Of a stretch of 64,000 nucleotides of DNA, positions 1 to 5,026 are shown one piece after another. Source of the DNA: Salipaludibacillus sp. LMS25. GTDB lineage: Bacteria > Bacillota > Bacilli > Bacillales > Salisediminibacteriaceae. The notes below the pieces were generated by a model that saw only the letters and a program-made list of their open reading frames with translations, made no database searches and had not been told where the DNA came from. The position numbers were made by a program, and so were the translations under genes. Every line of letters starts with the position of its first letter. The first letter of the stretch is position 1. The stretch spans positions 186,001 to 250,000 of the forward strand of contig NZ_CP093299.1 in NCBI RefSeq assembly GCF_024362805.1, written 5' to 3'.

Positions 1-1115
1 TTCTGTGATAAGAAGGGGATAAGCCCGTCAAAAGATAGCCCTCTGTCCAACCCACCAGCAATGAGAACAACCGGCTGTCGAAAAGCTTTCAATGCTGTAA
101 TTGTTGCAGGGACATTCGTTGCTTTTGAGTTATTATAAAATTTCCTTTTGTCAACTTCTCCAATATATTGCAGTCTGTGCTCTACCCCTTCAAATGTTTT
201 AAGAACTTCGCATACCTGCTGGCGATCAGCTCCTGCTAAAAGGGCGGCGGTGGCGGCTGCTAATCCGTTCGATAAGTTATGTTCTCCAGGTAAAGACATC
301 TCCTCTACCGGCAAAAGTTTATCTCCAAAAACCGTTAGCCACCCTTCCTTTATACAAGCACCTTCTGGAAGGTCTTTTCTCGTAGAAAATGGTACAAGAC
401 GAGCCTGTCCTTTTTTTACGACTTCTGAAACTAACCGGTCATCAGCGTTGTAAATAAGATAATCGTCGGACGTTTGCTTTAGAAAGATATTCATTTTAGC
501 AGTGACGTAATCATTCATAGACCCATGATAATCGAGATGAGCCTCTACAAAATTCAATAAAATAGCAATATGGGGCGCAAACCTTTCAACTCCCATTAAT
601 TGAAAGCTTGACAGTTCCACTACCATTTCATGATCAACCGTAGCTTCCTGCGCAACTTTGCAGGCTACTTTTCCAATATTCCCTGCAAGAAGTGGCAGCT
701 TTTTTCCACCTTGAAGCATGCTACCAATGTACGTCGTTGTTGTTGTTTTCCCATTGGACCCTGTAATACCTATCATATCTGATTCAGCAATCCGATACGC
801 CAGTTCCACTTCCGTATAAACTGGTATACCAAGGGCTATTGCCTTAACAACAAGTGGGTGATCATAACGAACTCCTGGGTTTTTAATTAAATAATCTAGA
901 GATTCGGTCACAAGAGATTCAGGATGTGAACCACAGACAACCTCTATTCCTTCATCTTCCAATTGTTTTGCTTCAACATTGCCATCATATGAATTTCGAT
1001 CATTTACAATAACGACAGCACCTAGCCTCTTTAAAAGCTTCGCTGCTTCTGTGCCACTTTTAGCAAGTCCTAGTACAAGCACTTTTTTTCCTTTAAAATC
1101 ATTAATCATTTTCAT
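1..1115 (-). CDS. murD: UDP-N-acetylmuramoylalanine--D-glutamate ligase MurD (3' end outside window)
   Basis: Adds D-glutamate to UDP-MurNAc-L-Ala in the cytoplasm, the second amino-acid step of peptidoglycan precursor synthesis. About 371 residues of a normally ~450-residue enzyme are present. An N-terminal Rossmann-type UDP-binding region ([10 protein letters not shown] near residue 12) is followed by the ATP P-loop GSNGKTTTT (about 119-127), the central [13 protein letters not shown] motif and the C-terminal-domain motif NNSKATN. The start ATG at 1115 overlaps the mraY stop by 4 nt (ATGA), indicating translational coupling, with GAGGTG as the ribosome site. All Mur-ligase catalytic motifs are intact, in contrast to the MurF-like protein upstream. 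Identification is firm; only the C-terminus is missing. Confidence 0.97.
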
Positions 1116-2089
1116 ATCATCCACACCTCTAAGTAAACACCTGCTACGGCAAATAAAATTCCAACAATCCAAAATGTGACGACAACACGCCATTCACTCC
1201 AACCCGAAAGTTCATAATGATGGTGGAGGGGACTCATTTTAAATACTCGTTTGCCCGTGGATTTAAATGAAATTACTTGAACAATAACAGACAACGTTTC
1301 AACAACGAAAACACCACCGATAACCACAAGTAATAATTCCATTTTCGTTAAAATCGCAATCATCGCTAACGCGCCCCCTAAAGCGAGAGAGCCTGTATCC
1401 CCCATAAACACTTTAGCAGGATGAGCATTAAATACAAGAAAGCCGAGTACAGCACCGACGATAGCGACTGAAAATAATGACACAGTCATCATATCAAGTG
1501 AGAATGCAATAATTGAGAAAGCGCCAAATGCCACAGCACTAGTGCCTGCTACTAATCCGTCCAAACCGTCGGTAAGATTAACAGCATTACTCGCCCCTAC
1601 AAGCATGATAATAATTAATGGGAAATAGAACCACCCAATGTCAACTGACCACTCTGTACCTGGCAGATGAATGGCTGTGGAAATATTAGCCTGATGCAAC
1701 ACAACATACACTAACGCGGCTATAGCCACCTGTCCTAAAAATTTCTGTTTAGAGGTTAAGCCAAGATTTCTCTTTTTTACCACTTTAATATAATCATCTA
1801 GAAAACCAAGCAAACCGAAACCAACGGTCACTAGAAGTAAAAGCCAAATCTCCATATCAATAGATTGGAACTGACTTGCCATGACGACGGTTGATAATAC
1901 AATTGACAGTATGATCATCAAGCCACCCATCGTCGGGGTGCCAGTTTTTTTCTGATGGGATTTAGGGCCTTCATTTCTTATACTTTGGCCAAATTTCAAT
2001 CGTCTTAAAAAAGGAATGAAAAATGGCGAGAAAAAAACAGTTAATAAAAATGATAGTAATAACGTAAATAATAATCCTTGTTCCAACAT
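1112..2089 (-). CDS. mraY: Phospho-N-acetylmuramoyl-pentapeptide transferase MraY
   Basis: Integral membrane enzyme that transfers phospho-MurNAc-pentapeptide to undecaprenyl phosphate, giving lipid I. The 325-residue length is normal for the family. About ten hydrophobic segments are visible. The cytoplasmic motifs [10 protein letters not shown] near the N-terminus, [10 protein letters not shown] (acidic Mg/phosphate-binding DD), [10 protein letters not shown] and the C-terminal [12 protein letters not shown] are all intact. It lies 15 nt downstream of the MurF-like gene and overlaps murD by 4 nt, so it is part of the murE-murD transcription unit. Confidence 0.98.
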
Positions 2090-2104: not shown

Positions 2105-3463
2105 CTAGTGCCTATTCAATTCTTTGATGAGTTGTTTTATTAATTCGCGGTTTGCCCCTCTGTACAACACGAGGCTCGTTTTTTCAATGATTTCTTTTAA
2201 AGGAATGATAGCTTCTGAGTGGGTCACATAATGCTTATAATTTAGTTTATCGTTGTCCCTTCTCTTTAATGCCTCTGCAACCCAAAAAGCTTTGTCTCCT
2301 ATTGTCAACACATCTGAAATAGGGGCAGCCACTAAGGAAGCTGCGGTCTCATGAAACATCTTTTCTCCTTTTTCTCCTCGAAAGCCATCGTCAATAATTA
2401 AGACTCGCCGCTGGAAAGCTCCTAGCTGTTTGAGCATCTTAACACCGTATTCGGCGCGAAATTGCCTTTCTCCAAACGTATCACATACGATGAGAGTCCC
2501 ACCAACCGTGCCAATCTCGGCCAATTCTATATCTCTTAAATTCAGTTGTCTAAGAGAAGTTTTAATGTGGTCTGCATCAATACCTAGGTGTACTGACGCT
2601 GCAATTGTAGACGTAATAAGTTTAATATGGTTACTAAATATACTTGGCAGCTGAAATGTTAATCTAATACCTTTAATGCTAAATGTACACGTCTCTCCAT
2701 GACACACACTTTCCTCAATGTGAAACATATTTTCTTGGTTTTCTCCGTAAAAGAACACATCTGTTTTCCATTCTCTTGAACGAAAATAGACGTGATCCCC
2801 TTTAACAATAATAGTGCCACTTGCTTTCATACCGTCTTCAATGAAGGCGGTATGTCGAAGAAGAGCCTCTTCCTCCCCCTCATCATCAACAACAATGAGG
2901 CTAATTGAAGGGGTGAGTAATTCCCCTATTTTTGTTACCTTGCTCTGTGTCCGCGCATCCACATCACATATTAAAGCATCTGTTTCAAGAGGCATCGTCA
3001 AAATCGTTTCCAGCACACTTTTCTCATCAGCTGTCGCACGATCTCTCCCATGAACATTATAGGTGTCCGTTAAGAGCTTCACAAGAACTTTTTTTGCAGC
3101 AATTCGCGTTTCATCTCCCACTACGGCAATTTTAACGGGATCAACCTCAACTAAATAGATTTCTGCCAGTTGTTTAACTGCTACCATTGGATCTTCCACT
3201 ACAAATACCGTTATATCATCAGACAATGAAGGAGATAAAGAGACTGATTTTTTCCAAAAGGTAGCACAAGCACCTGCTTCCACAGCCGCTTCAATTAATT
3301 GATGACTATCAAACCCATGTTCGTCGATTGGCACATAAATGTCCCCTGGTTCAACCTTATTCGCGTCGAATGAGATTCCCTTTGCAGTAAAGGTGATAGG
3401 GAAAGAGCCATGAACTTCTGAACAAACTTGTTTAATAAGGTGATAATCTAGATGACCCATCAT
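2105..3463 (-). CDS. MurF-like Mur-ligase-fold protein lacking catalytic motifs (probable pseudoenzyme)
   Basis: A 452-residue protein that aligns end to end by eye with MurF, the ligase adding D-Ala-D-Ala to the UDP-MurNAc-tripeptide. The N-terminal substrate domain is well kept (SFDANKVEPGD about 31-41, FDSHQLIEAAVEAGA about 51-65). The ATP P-loop, normally GSNGKTTTK, reads GDETRIAAK (116-124). The central EMGMS and NIGE-x-H motifs are replaced by CDVDA and VDDEGEEE. GxHNxxN reads SNHIKLI, DAYNASP reads DTFGERQ, GDMLELG reads DDGFRGE and the KGSR motif reads RGAN. The reading frame is open and of normal length, so this is not simple decay. Start: ATG 3463 with GGAGGAG upstream; longer in-frame extensions would run into murE. 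In B. subtilis murF lies elsewhere with ddl and none sits here. A regulatory or scaffolding role is inference. Confidence 0.85.
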   Translation of the reverse strand: MMGHLDYHLIKQVCSEVHGSFPITFTAKGISFDANKVEPGDIYVPIDEHGFDSHQLIEAAVEAGACATFWKKSVSLSPSLSDDITVFVVEDPMVAVKQLAEIYLVEVDPVKIAVVGDETRIAAKKVLVKLLTDTYNVHGRDRATADEKSVLETILTMPLETDALICDVDARTQSKVTKIGELLTPSISLIVVDDEGEEEALLRHTAFIEDGMKASGTIIVKGDHVYFRSREWKTDVFFYGENQENMFHIEESVCHGETCTFSIKGIRLTFQLPSIFSNHIKLITSTIAASVHLGIDADHIKTSLRQLNLRDIELAEIGTVGGTLIVCDTFGERQFRAEYGVKMLKQLGAFQRRVLIIDDGFRGEKGEKMFHETAASLVAAPISDVLTIGDKAFWVAEALKRRDNDKLNYKHYVTHSEAIIPLKEIIEKTSLVLYRGANRELIKQLIKELNRH

Positions 3464-3464
3464 T

Positions 3465-4931
3465 TTAAAAACGCTCCTCCAATGCCTCTTTAGCAACGAG
3501 TCTGTCGTCAAAATCATACGTCTCATTTCCGATAGTTTGATATGTTTCGTGCCCTTTACCTGCAATAAGAATGACATCATCATTTTCTGCTTGCCGAATG
3601 GCAGTATAAATAGCTTCCTTACGGTTTTCAATGACTGAATAATCGGTTTTTGATAGTCCTTTTTCCATATCCGCTAAAATGGTCTGCGGATTTTCAGATC
3701 GCGGATTGTCAGACGTCAAATAAACATAATCCGCTAGTTCTTCTGCAATACGGGCCATTTCAGGACGCTTTGTTCGATCACGGTCTCCTCCACAACCTAC
3801 AACAACACTTATTTTCCTCTTGGCAAATTCCTTGATCGTTTCTAAGGCATTCTTCAAGCTATCAGGTGTATGAGCATAATCTACAATCACATGCACTGGA
3901 CTATCCACATCAATTTTTTCAAATCTGCCAGACACACCTTGCACATTGCTTATACTTTTAATGATAGAGGTTATAGGAACCCCTGACGCTGCTGTAGCTG
4001 TAATGGCAGCTAACACATTATACACTGAGAACCTGCCCGTTAACTTTAAGCTAATATCAAAAATGTCATTTCCTTTCACAAGTTGAAAATCTGTTCCTGA
4101 TTCATGAATGTGAACATTTATAGCACGATAGTCAGCATATTCACTAAGTCCGTATGTCAAAATAGGAACTGCTGTCATTGTTTCTAATTGTTCGAAATGA
4201 GCATCATCACAATTTAATACAGCGATATTTTGTTTACCATTCCCATAACCATTACCAAGTTGGGCAAATAACAACCCTTTAGCTCTCCCGTAGTTTTCCA
4301 TCGTTTTATGAAAATCTAGATGATCTTGAGTTAAGTTTGTGAAAACACCAATGTTAAAATCTACGCCGTGTACCCGTCCCATTTCAAGAGCATGGGAAGA
4401 GACTTCCATCGTGACAGCTTCAACTCCGGCCTCACACATATCAGCAAAACCATGTTGAAGTGTGAGAGCGTCCGGTGTTGTATTTTTAACCTCTATTTCC
4501 TTATCTTTATATTTCATATACATCGTACCAATAATACCTGTTTCTATTTTATAATCAGTTAAGATTTGCTGGATAAGGTGTGTCGTTGTTGTCTTACCAT
4601 TCGTACCAGTAACGCCAATCGTATGCATACGAGCACTTGGGAAATGGTAGTATCGAGCAGATATAATTGCCATTGCTCGCTTACTGTCTCTTACTTTGAT
4701 GACAGGTACATTAACATTCACATCCTGTTCCGCGATAATAGCGACAGCTCCTGCTTCCTCGGCTTGCTTAGCAAACGTATGCCCGTCAACTGTATAGCCT
4801 TTTATACAGAAGAAGAGACTCCCTTTTTCAACTTGACGATTGTCCATTGCTAAATGAGAGATGAGCGGGTTGCCTTCATTTACAACGCTATAAGCCGGTA
4901 GTACATCTATTAAGTCGTGCAATAATATCAT
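3465..4931 (-). CDS. murE: UDP-MurNAc-tripeptide synthetase MurE (meso-diaminopimelate-adding)
   Basis: Cytoplasmic ligase adding the third stem-peptide residue. The motifs GVTGTNGKTTTT (P-loop), TTPDALTLQ, EVSSHALEMGRV, NLTQDHLDFH (with LDFHKTMENY) and GKGHETYQ are all present. DNPRSENP marks the meso-diaminopimelate-specific branch, so this wall is predicted to be of the A1-gamma type. The start at 4931 (ATG ATA TTA) is preferred over an upstream ATG at 4949 because GAGGG lies 7 nt before it. The stop at 3465-3467 is followed 1 nt later by the MurF-like start, so the two are likely translated in a coupled way. Confidence 0.96.
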   Translation of the reverse strand: MILLHDLIDVLPAYSVVNEGNPLISHLAMDNRQVEKGSLFFCIKGYTVDGHTFAKQAEEAGAVAIIAEQDVNVNVPVIKVRDSKRAMAIISARYYHFPSARMHTIGVTGTNGKTTTTHLIQQILTDYKIETGIIGTMYMKYKDKEIEVKNTTPDALTLQHGFADMCEAGVEAVTMEVSSHALEMGRVHGVDFNIGVFTNLTQDHLDFHKTMENYGRAKGLLFAQLGNGYGNGKQNIAVLNCDDAHFEQLETMTAVPILTYGLSEYADYRAINVHIHESGTDFQLVKGNDIFDISLKLTGRFSVYNVLAAITATAASGVPITSIIKSISNVQGVSGRFEKIDVDSPVHVIVDYAHTPDSLKNALETIKEFAKRKISVVVGCGGDRDRTKRPEMARIAEELADYVYLTSDNPRSENPQTILADMEKGLSKTDYSVIENRKEAIYTAIRQAENDDVILIAGKGHETYQTIGNETYDFDDRLVAKEALEERF

Positions 4932-5026
4932 CCTAATTCCCTCTTCCATTCCTATTCTTTAATAACATATTAATTAGAGTCGTTAAGGTTGTTGTTTACC
5001 TTCCTTTCAGACCGTCTCTGTTTATT

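Follow-up and report, generated by a model that had tools for sequence, protein, structure and literature searches.

The window, the 64,000-nt stretch of the Salipaludibacillus sp. LMS25 genome analyzed here, contains an open reading frame (ORF) of 452 amino acids between murE (3465–4949, minus strand) and mraY (1112–2089, minus strand). The ORF (2105–3463, minus strand) runs from an ATG at 3463 to a stop codon at 2105. A single base separates its start from the murE stop codon, its ribosome-binding site, GGAGGAG (3474–3480, minus strand), lies within the end of murE, and 15 nt separate its own stop from the mraY start; positions 243–1106 of the window score as murD. The product matches the murF model TIGR01143 over model positions 1–414 of 418, but at 115 bits it misses the curated cut-off for MurF ligase (288.6 bits), and a Pfam scan returned no family at E ≤ 10. 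Its closest relatives in named genomes come from Salipaludibacillus (five), followed by Salisediminibacterium and Alkalicoccus; the S. agaradhaerens protein is 79% identical, and close relatives are annotated as UDP-N-acetylmuramoyl-tripeptide ligase, Mur ligase family protein, or hypothetical protein. The genome itself (G000) is a single contig of 4.5 Mb and is 99.98% complete. Because a homologue occupies the equivalent place in all 35 genomes analyzed from the halophilic and alkaliphilic family Salisediminibacteriaceae, the locus is not a product of chance, and the open frame in every one of them rules out an assembly or frame error.

The initial annotation had read this protein as a MurF-derived pseudoenzyme in which all catalytic motifs are replaced, with GDETRIAAK at the P-loop position. 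Alignment reproduced that string exactly (3092–3118, minus strand), where most motif-bearing MurFs carry GSNGKTTTK and most relatives of the same type (type I, defined below) carry GDY. The protein is divided, at approximate boundaries, into an N-terminal domain placed by alignment (residues 1–95; 3179–3463, minus strand), a middle domain without catalytic motifs (residues 96–310; 2534–3178, minus strand), and a C-terminal domain that holds newly conserved type I residues (residues 311–452; 2108–2533, minus strand). The EMG, NIGExH, HNxxN, and DAYN(A/S) motifs are each replaced. By alignment, the MurF GDMLELG position reads DDGFR (2378–2392, minus strand) compared with DEGFQ in most type I relatives, and the KASR/KGSR position reads YRGANR (2147–2164, minus strand). 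In the N-terminal domain, the DSR position lacks its arginine, and D-S-H stands where most relatives have D-G-H. The three-domain Mur ligase fold is nevertheless predicted to be retained: the AlphaFold2 model has a MurF fold (pLDDT 82), and the nine top-ranked entries when it was compared with the PDB using VIA-align were all MurF. The protein therefore differs from characterized MurF, the UDP-MurNAc-tripeptide:D-Ala-D-Ala ligase (PDB: 4cvm, 2am1, and 1gg4), in lacking the P-loop lysine and threonine and the other motifs and in its low family score. A ligase with a shifted ATP site was ruled out, because the frame contains no G-x-x-G-K-T, which a MurF ligase P-loop requires, and the C-terminal domain motifs are also changed. 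Homology to an active enzyme combined with loss of its catalytic residues makes the reading as a MurF-derived pseudoenzyme well supported at the level of sequence.

A true MurF was expected elsewhere in the genome, beside ddl as in B. subtilis, and a search there did recover a second MurF-type ligase. Five proteins in this genome contain a Mur ligase middle domain: MurE, MurD, MurC, FolC, and a 532-amino-acid protein encoded next to ddl (G000:C1:830598–832196, minus strand; L006:1465–3063). The last of these has a GSFGKT P-loop and an EMG motif, and matches the murF model from position 70 onward at 240 bits (curated cut-off, 288.6). The expected location was correct, but the kind of protein was not: before residue 180 it has hydrophobic stretches (judged by eye) and no MurF N-terminal domain. 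We refer to such proteins as membrane-type. From sequence, the 532-amino-acid protein is the sole remaining MurF candidate in this genome and is presumably active.

All 35 family genomes encode an open MurF-like ORF of at least 220 amino acids between murE and mraY. The alignment across MurF homologues that had been proposed showed that this dcw copy bears the motifs in only three of them (G009, G022, and G025; 397–427 bits), and no second MurF, canonical or membrane-type, was found in these three among the matches listed, although G009 and G025 encode an extra, shorter Mur ligase relative (382–397 amino acids). The motifs are lost in the other 32, and another MurF-type gene is present in each of these 32 genomes among the matches listed (20 canonical and 13 membrane-type, with both in G028). 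Measured from the first start codon, the inactive dcw forms comprise full-length type I (445–453 amino acids, 11 genomes, including the one that contains the window), type I with a shrunken middle domain (383–404 amino acids, 9 genomes), type II without a C-terminal domain (302–351 amino acids, 10 genomes, with G014 of independent origin), and the middle domain alone (220–223 amino acids, G019 and G026). Among the 13 membrane-type proteins, six sequences were read and the other seven were assigned by frame length (522–540 amino acids) and match range; ddl adjoins all 20 canonical loci and all six membrane-type loci read.

A tree of murE and mraY from the 35 family genomes and seven outgroups has the topology (G009, ((G014,(G022,G025)), (type II, type I))), on which the most parsimonious history has two losses of the motifs, in the ancestor of 31 genomes and, separately, in G014. 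In the MurF tree (75 rows; G019 and G026 were excluded because they retain the middle domain alone, and the G033 ddl-MurF was excluded here and from the column comparison because its ORF was miscalled at a contig end), type I forms one clade (support 100/99) and the ddl MurFs form another (100/100); the dcw copies of the family, active and inactive, lie outside the ddl clade. The branching order of type II is unsure because of its long branches. Type I was not found beyond the family: scores in a type I profile search drop from 510 to 99 bits beyond the last protein of the family, and the outside matches read (the best at 288 bits among the matches listed) carry a P-loop. All 23 dcw-type MurFs taken from genomes of the order likewise have the P-loop, and three of them miss the strict HN..N pattern. 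A 313-amino-acid dcw MurF without a P-loop occurs in G284 and G241 (L242:2625–3566 and L243:2568–3509) and represents another loss of activity, because their genus mate G069 has a dcw MurF with a P-loop.

The inactive gene could be a displaced dcw murF that is decaying slowly and has no function. The many lengths of the inactive forms would fit such a relic, as would the murF family match that extends slightly past the stop codon in G008 and G010, a sign of a cut C terminus, and the outright loss of the gene in many other families. Four type II pairs also diverge rapidly, with protein identities of 34–47% compared with 69–77% for murE; in the 19-pair set to which they belong, pairs with saturated dS are uninformative, and dN/dS could be measured for two of the type II pairs, at 0.25 and 0.53. 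Against decay, the frame is open at 220 amino acids or more in 35 of 35 genomes, and type I has a single origin and has persisted through four genera. The selection analysis called for by the initial annotation also points to a maintained gene: pairwise NG86 estimates with a codon bootstrap gave dN/dS of 0.04–0.28 in all eight pairs, with every upper bound at 0.38 or less, for pairs that are not independent, since they share genomes, and with codon use uncorrected. Values this far below 1 make a dead relic unlikely, and we regard slow decay as very improbable.

Individual pairs differ in the strength of this constraint. The window's own pair (G000/G001) gave 0.278 (0.200–0.380) compared with 0.094 for murE, and G000/G005 gave 0.265, with 0.350 (0.207–0.621) for the C-terminal domain alone; bounds for single domains are wider than for whole genes. 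Values were 0.121 (0.068–0.193) for G002/G003, 0.110 for G006/G007, where dS is near saturation, and 0.165 (0.101–0.258) for G019/G026, whose ORFs consist of the middle domain alone. Pairwise comparisons of G027, G031, and G033 gave 0.047, 0.043, and 0.069, all lower than murE of the same pairs; for G027/G031 the value was 0.047 (0.025–0.074), with murE at 0.088 and mraY at 0.022. Across the eight pairs, murE ranged from 0.057 to 0.136 and mraY from 0.013 to 0.056. Branch lengths judged by eye showed no consistent trend toward faster pseudoenzyme evolution where a membrane-type MurF stands alone.

The P-loop, the GDMLELG loop, and the KGSR motif of MurF line the cleft for ATP and D-Ala-D-Ala. 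To see what became of these positions, 20 type I proteins were compared with 44 motif-bearing MurFs at 123 MurF-conserved columns, with the G028 ddl-MurF, G019, and G026 left out of the counts. In type I, 13 columns are kept, 98 are relaxed, and 12 have switched to another conserved residue (85–100%). Seven of the 12 fall in the P-loop (S to D and N to Y), GDMLELG (D to E, M to G, and E to Q), and KASR (S to A and R to N) motifs; together with the newly conserved D358, F361, Y434, and G436, these switches produce the type I strings GDY, DEGFQ, and Y(R/K)GAN. The window protein departs from the type I consensus at three switched sites (E118, D359, and R362). The string GEKAFW is not an innovation, as the motif-bearing G025 copy carries it too. 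Because new conserved residues stand at the old active-site motifs, we infer that the type I cleft was rebuilt and not merely abandoned.

The DSR and DGH motifs of the N-terminal domain are the uridine contact residues of MurF. Five residues are invariant in the 44 motif-bearing MurFs: the DSR aspartate and arginine, G48, F51, and H54 (the DGH histidine). The DSR arginine is absent from every inactive form in which the column was counted (20/20 type I, 10/10 type II, and 30/30 of the proteins outside the family that consist of the N-terminal domain only, described below), and the DGH histidine is kept in 20/20 type I but in only 1/10 type II and 1/30 N-domain-only proteins. The latter have deleted G48 in 28/30 and F51 in 25/30, while they keep G64 and P85 (30/30 each), A60 (28/30), and W70 (26/30), with G19, L42, P77, P81, F84, F87, and Y103 kept at 93% or more. 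In MurE, by the extract of PMC3829189 consulted, domain 1 holds the uridine site and ATP lies between domains 2 and 3. The initial annotation proposed that the conserved N-terminal domain still binds a UDP-MurNAc-peptide; the fold is kept, but loss of the DSR arginine weakens the case for binding. The same loss bears on a sensor role, in which the domain would bind UDP-MurNAc-tripeptide or -pentapeptide and regulate MurE, MurF, or MraY according to pool size. Such a sensor would account for the presence of the domain in 30 of 32 inactive forms (it is absent from G019 and G026), for the histidine retained throughout type I, and for the newly conserved C-terminal residues at motif positions; it sits poorly with an arginine missing from all three groups counted and a histidine missing from nearly all type II and N-domain-only proteins, and we consider it unlikely. 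Since the conserved part of the N-terminal domain lies mainly outside the uridine residues, its pattern argues for protein contact over UDP-sugar sensing, and, of the sensor, scaffold, or allosteric partner roles first suggested, the sensor agrees less well with the data than an adaptor does.

Retention of MurF fragments extends beyond the family. We selected 30 genomes from other families whose best MurF match was of the ddl kind; three (G036, G047, and G069) have a dcw MurF match directly 3′ of murE, which left 27. In 12 of the 27, an ORF of 138–161 amino acids lies between murE and mraY and matches the MurF N-terminal domain (best E 5e-19, L186; 11 were compared and L190 was assigned by alignment only). 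The MurF match lies far from murE in all 12, as assigned by match and frame length (at least 455 amino acids). The other 15 have no such ORF, with murE–mraY gaps of 125 nt or less in ten and about 145–356 nt in five, and none of the nine gaps compared gave a MurF match better than E 0.7. Four loci have gaps of approximately 290–360 nt without an N-domain ORF or clear MurF match (L182:1211–1498, L183:1139–1495, L199:2973–3298, and L211:2982–3285).

A profile built from the 12 proteins found an N-domain-only frame (109–178 amino acids) in at least 79 of 397 genomes of the order, from 13 families, and the gene lies between murE and mraY in all 34 loci checked (for example, L196:2958–3413 and L186:1034–1492). 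The count omits G088, where a 190-amino-acid MurF is cut by contig ends, and includes G038, which has one stop within the profile match yet an open ORF of 146 amino acids; in G256, the N-domain frame of 109 amino acids is open and the six stops of the match lie in the tail. The hosts of 56 such proteins include Geobacillus, Parageobacillus, Anoxybacillus or Anoxybacteroides, Neobacillus, Bacillus smithii, and Fredinandcohnia, and most of the proteins are annotated as hypothetical or are unnamed, some as UDP-N-acetylmuramyl pentapeptide synthase. Pfam and NCBIfam hardly detect them (NCBIfam murF in 1 of 12, E 0.0015), and the N-domain profile had no match among PDB sequences at 0.01. One protein was modeled, with confident prediction over residues 1–100 (block-mean pLDDT 86–95), and its top Foldseek matches in the PDB were mostly Mur ligases, with weak E values (best 7.8e-4). 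The N-terminal domain is the smallest widespread form, and the model predicts that it can fold independently. For the N-domain-only ORFs, dN/dS was 0.15–0.35, with upper bounds of 0.54 or less, in 14 of 16 pairs; synonymous change was too scarce in the remaining two.

The tight spacing at these loci raises the question of whether the ORF is kept solely for translational coupling of murE and mraY, the protein itself being idle. As a spacer would, the ORF fits closely between its neighbors in the window and in 30/30 N-domain-only loci measured: its start is no more than 5 nt from the murE stop, and its end is no more than 17 nt from the mraY start. Such a spacer would not call for purifying selection on the amino acid sequence, however, and in the N-domain-only proteins the domain is under tighter constraint than the tail in 11 of the 13 pairs for which both could be computed. 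In addition, mraY has its own ribosome-binding site, and in the family forms without a C-terminal domain, about 50–275 nt (from first start codons) precede mraY and the protein is still kept. We therefore judge a pure coupling role to be quite unlikely. Where the C-terminal domain was lost, the gap between a type II ORF and mraY, approximately 178–275 nt at L092, L094, L099, L100, L107, and L114, may hold a new promoter or leader.

The membrane-type ligases suggest a further possibility, that a MurF lacking its own UDP-binding domain borrows one from the pseudoenzyme. In the window's genome, the pseudoenzyme is indeed the only MurF-like protein with a MurF-type N-terminal domain. Among the matches listed, 12 of the 35 family genomes have no MurF candidate other than the membrane type, as do 9 of 10 additional genomes that were searched; all 15 membrane-type sequences read have a GS(F/Y)GKT P-loop. 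Those nine genomes, outside the family, have no gene between murE and mraY, which are at most about 64 nt apart, and within the family pseudoenzymes are equally retained alongside canonical MurFs. On the strength of the nine counter-examples, domain donation was rejected as extremely improbable.

The reading that we favor, by a modest degree of confidence, is that the dcw murF lost catalysis and was kept as a non-catalytic adaptor in a MurE/MurF/MraY assembly, a role that is inferred. The pseudoenzyme gene descends from the murF of the dcw cluster. MurF activity would have moved to another gene, canonical or membrane-anchored and beside ddl where looked at, after which the dcw copy would have lost ATP binding and catalysis yet stayed as a protein, the catalysis-free remainder of MurF's contact function. 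It could bring together MurE, the relocated MurF, and/or MraY (perhaps also MurG) and ease the hand-over of UDP-MurNAc-peptide; in type I, the old active-site cleft may have been remodeled to form a new conserved site for a contact or ligand. Contacts of this kind have precedents in the extract of PMC6420597 consulted: a MurF–MraY contact by two-hybrid assay in Caulobacter, a MurE–MurF fusion in Bordetella, and binding of MurF by MurG, a scaffold for Mur ligases. Several observations count against an adaptor. No single part is common to all inactive forms, since G019 and G026 lack the N- and C-terminal domains, type II lacks the C-terminal domain, and the middle domain is reduced in short type I; selection on the window's own pair is also weaker than that on its murE, and the dN/dS values of 0.25 and 0.53 in type II point the same way. 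Outright loss elsewhere, in the 15 of 27 genomes and in 9 of 9 membrane-type-only genomes, counts against every functional reading. More tentatively, the MurF N-terminal domain, with a rebuilt cleft in one clade, may have a second, non-catalytic role in MurE–MraY assembly, which would be why Bacillales with relocated catalysis keep a "MurF adaptor," either as a full-length pseudoenzyme or as a protein of approximately 110–180 amino acids in relatives of Geobacillus, Parageobacillus, Anoxybacillus, and Neobacillus.

Pseudoenzymes, and a structural relative of the Mur ligases, are already known kinds. In Foldseek, the N-domain-only model matched best to chain Q of a plastid RNA polymerase. This chain is the MurE-like subunit of the plastid-encoded enzyme (PDB: 8r6s_Q and 8xzv_J), known as PAP11; it too has a Mur ligase fold within a larger complex, but, going by PDB titles, it belongs to the MurE lineage and to the transcription machinery of plant plastids. 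MurT has an intact ATP-binding P-loop, uses ATP, and lacks a MurF-type N-terminal domain, and gatD adjoins murT. Conversely, the window protein has the N-terminal domain and no P-loop, and its gene neighbors are murE and mraY, not gatD. MurT of GatD/MurT (PDB: 6gs2 and 9sqj) is likewise related to the Mur ligases and has acquired a new partner (PMC3266927, in extract). In the MurE–MurF fusion and MurG scaffold (PMC6420597, in extract; PDB: 8f5d, by title), MurF is similarly coupled to MurE and the membrane steps, but the fusion is described there as a bifunctional enzyme. No inactive MurF or MurF pseudoenzyme was found in searches that covered open-access PMC papers.

Whether the Mur ligases operate as a physical assembly is difficult to address experimentally, since the loss of any ligase abolishes an essential activity as well. 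With catalysis in another gene and the old protein retained, nature seems to have split structure from catalysis, and deleting the pseudoenzyme would probe the structural role alone. The result also corrects existing annotation, under which metabolic models could count a false MurF from pseudoenzyme entries. The membrane-anchored MurF type is a further lead. Several family genomes also encode Mur ligase relatives of 374–397 amino acids (for example, G004:C1:2369013, G026:C1:746695, and G009:C13:88251), which match the murF model from approximately position 66 at 242–287 bits.
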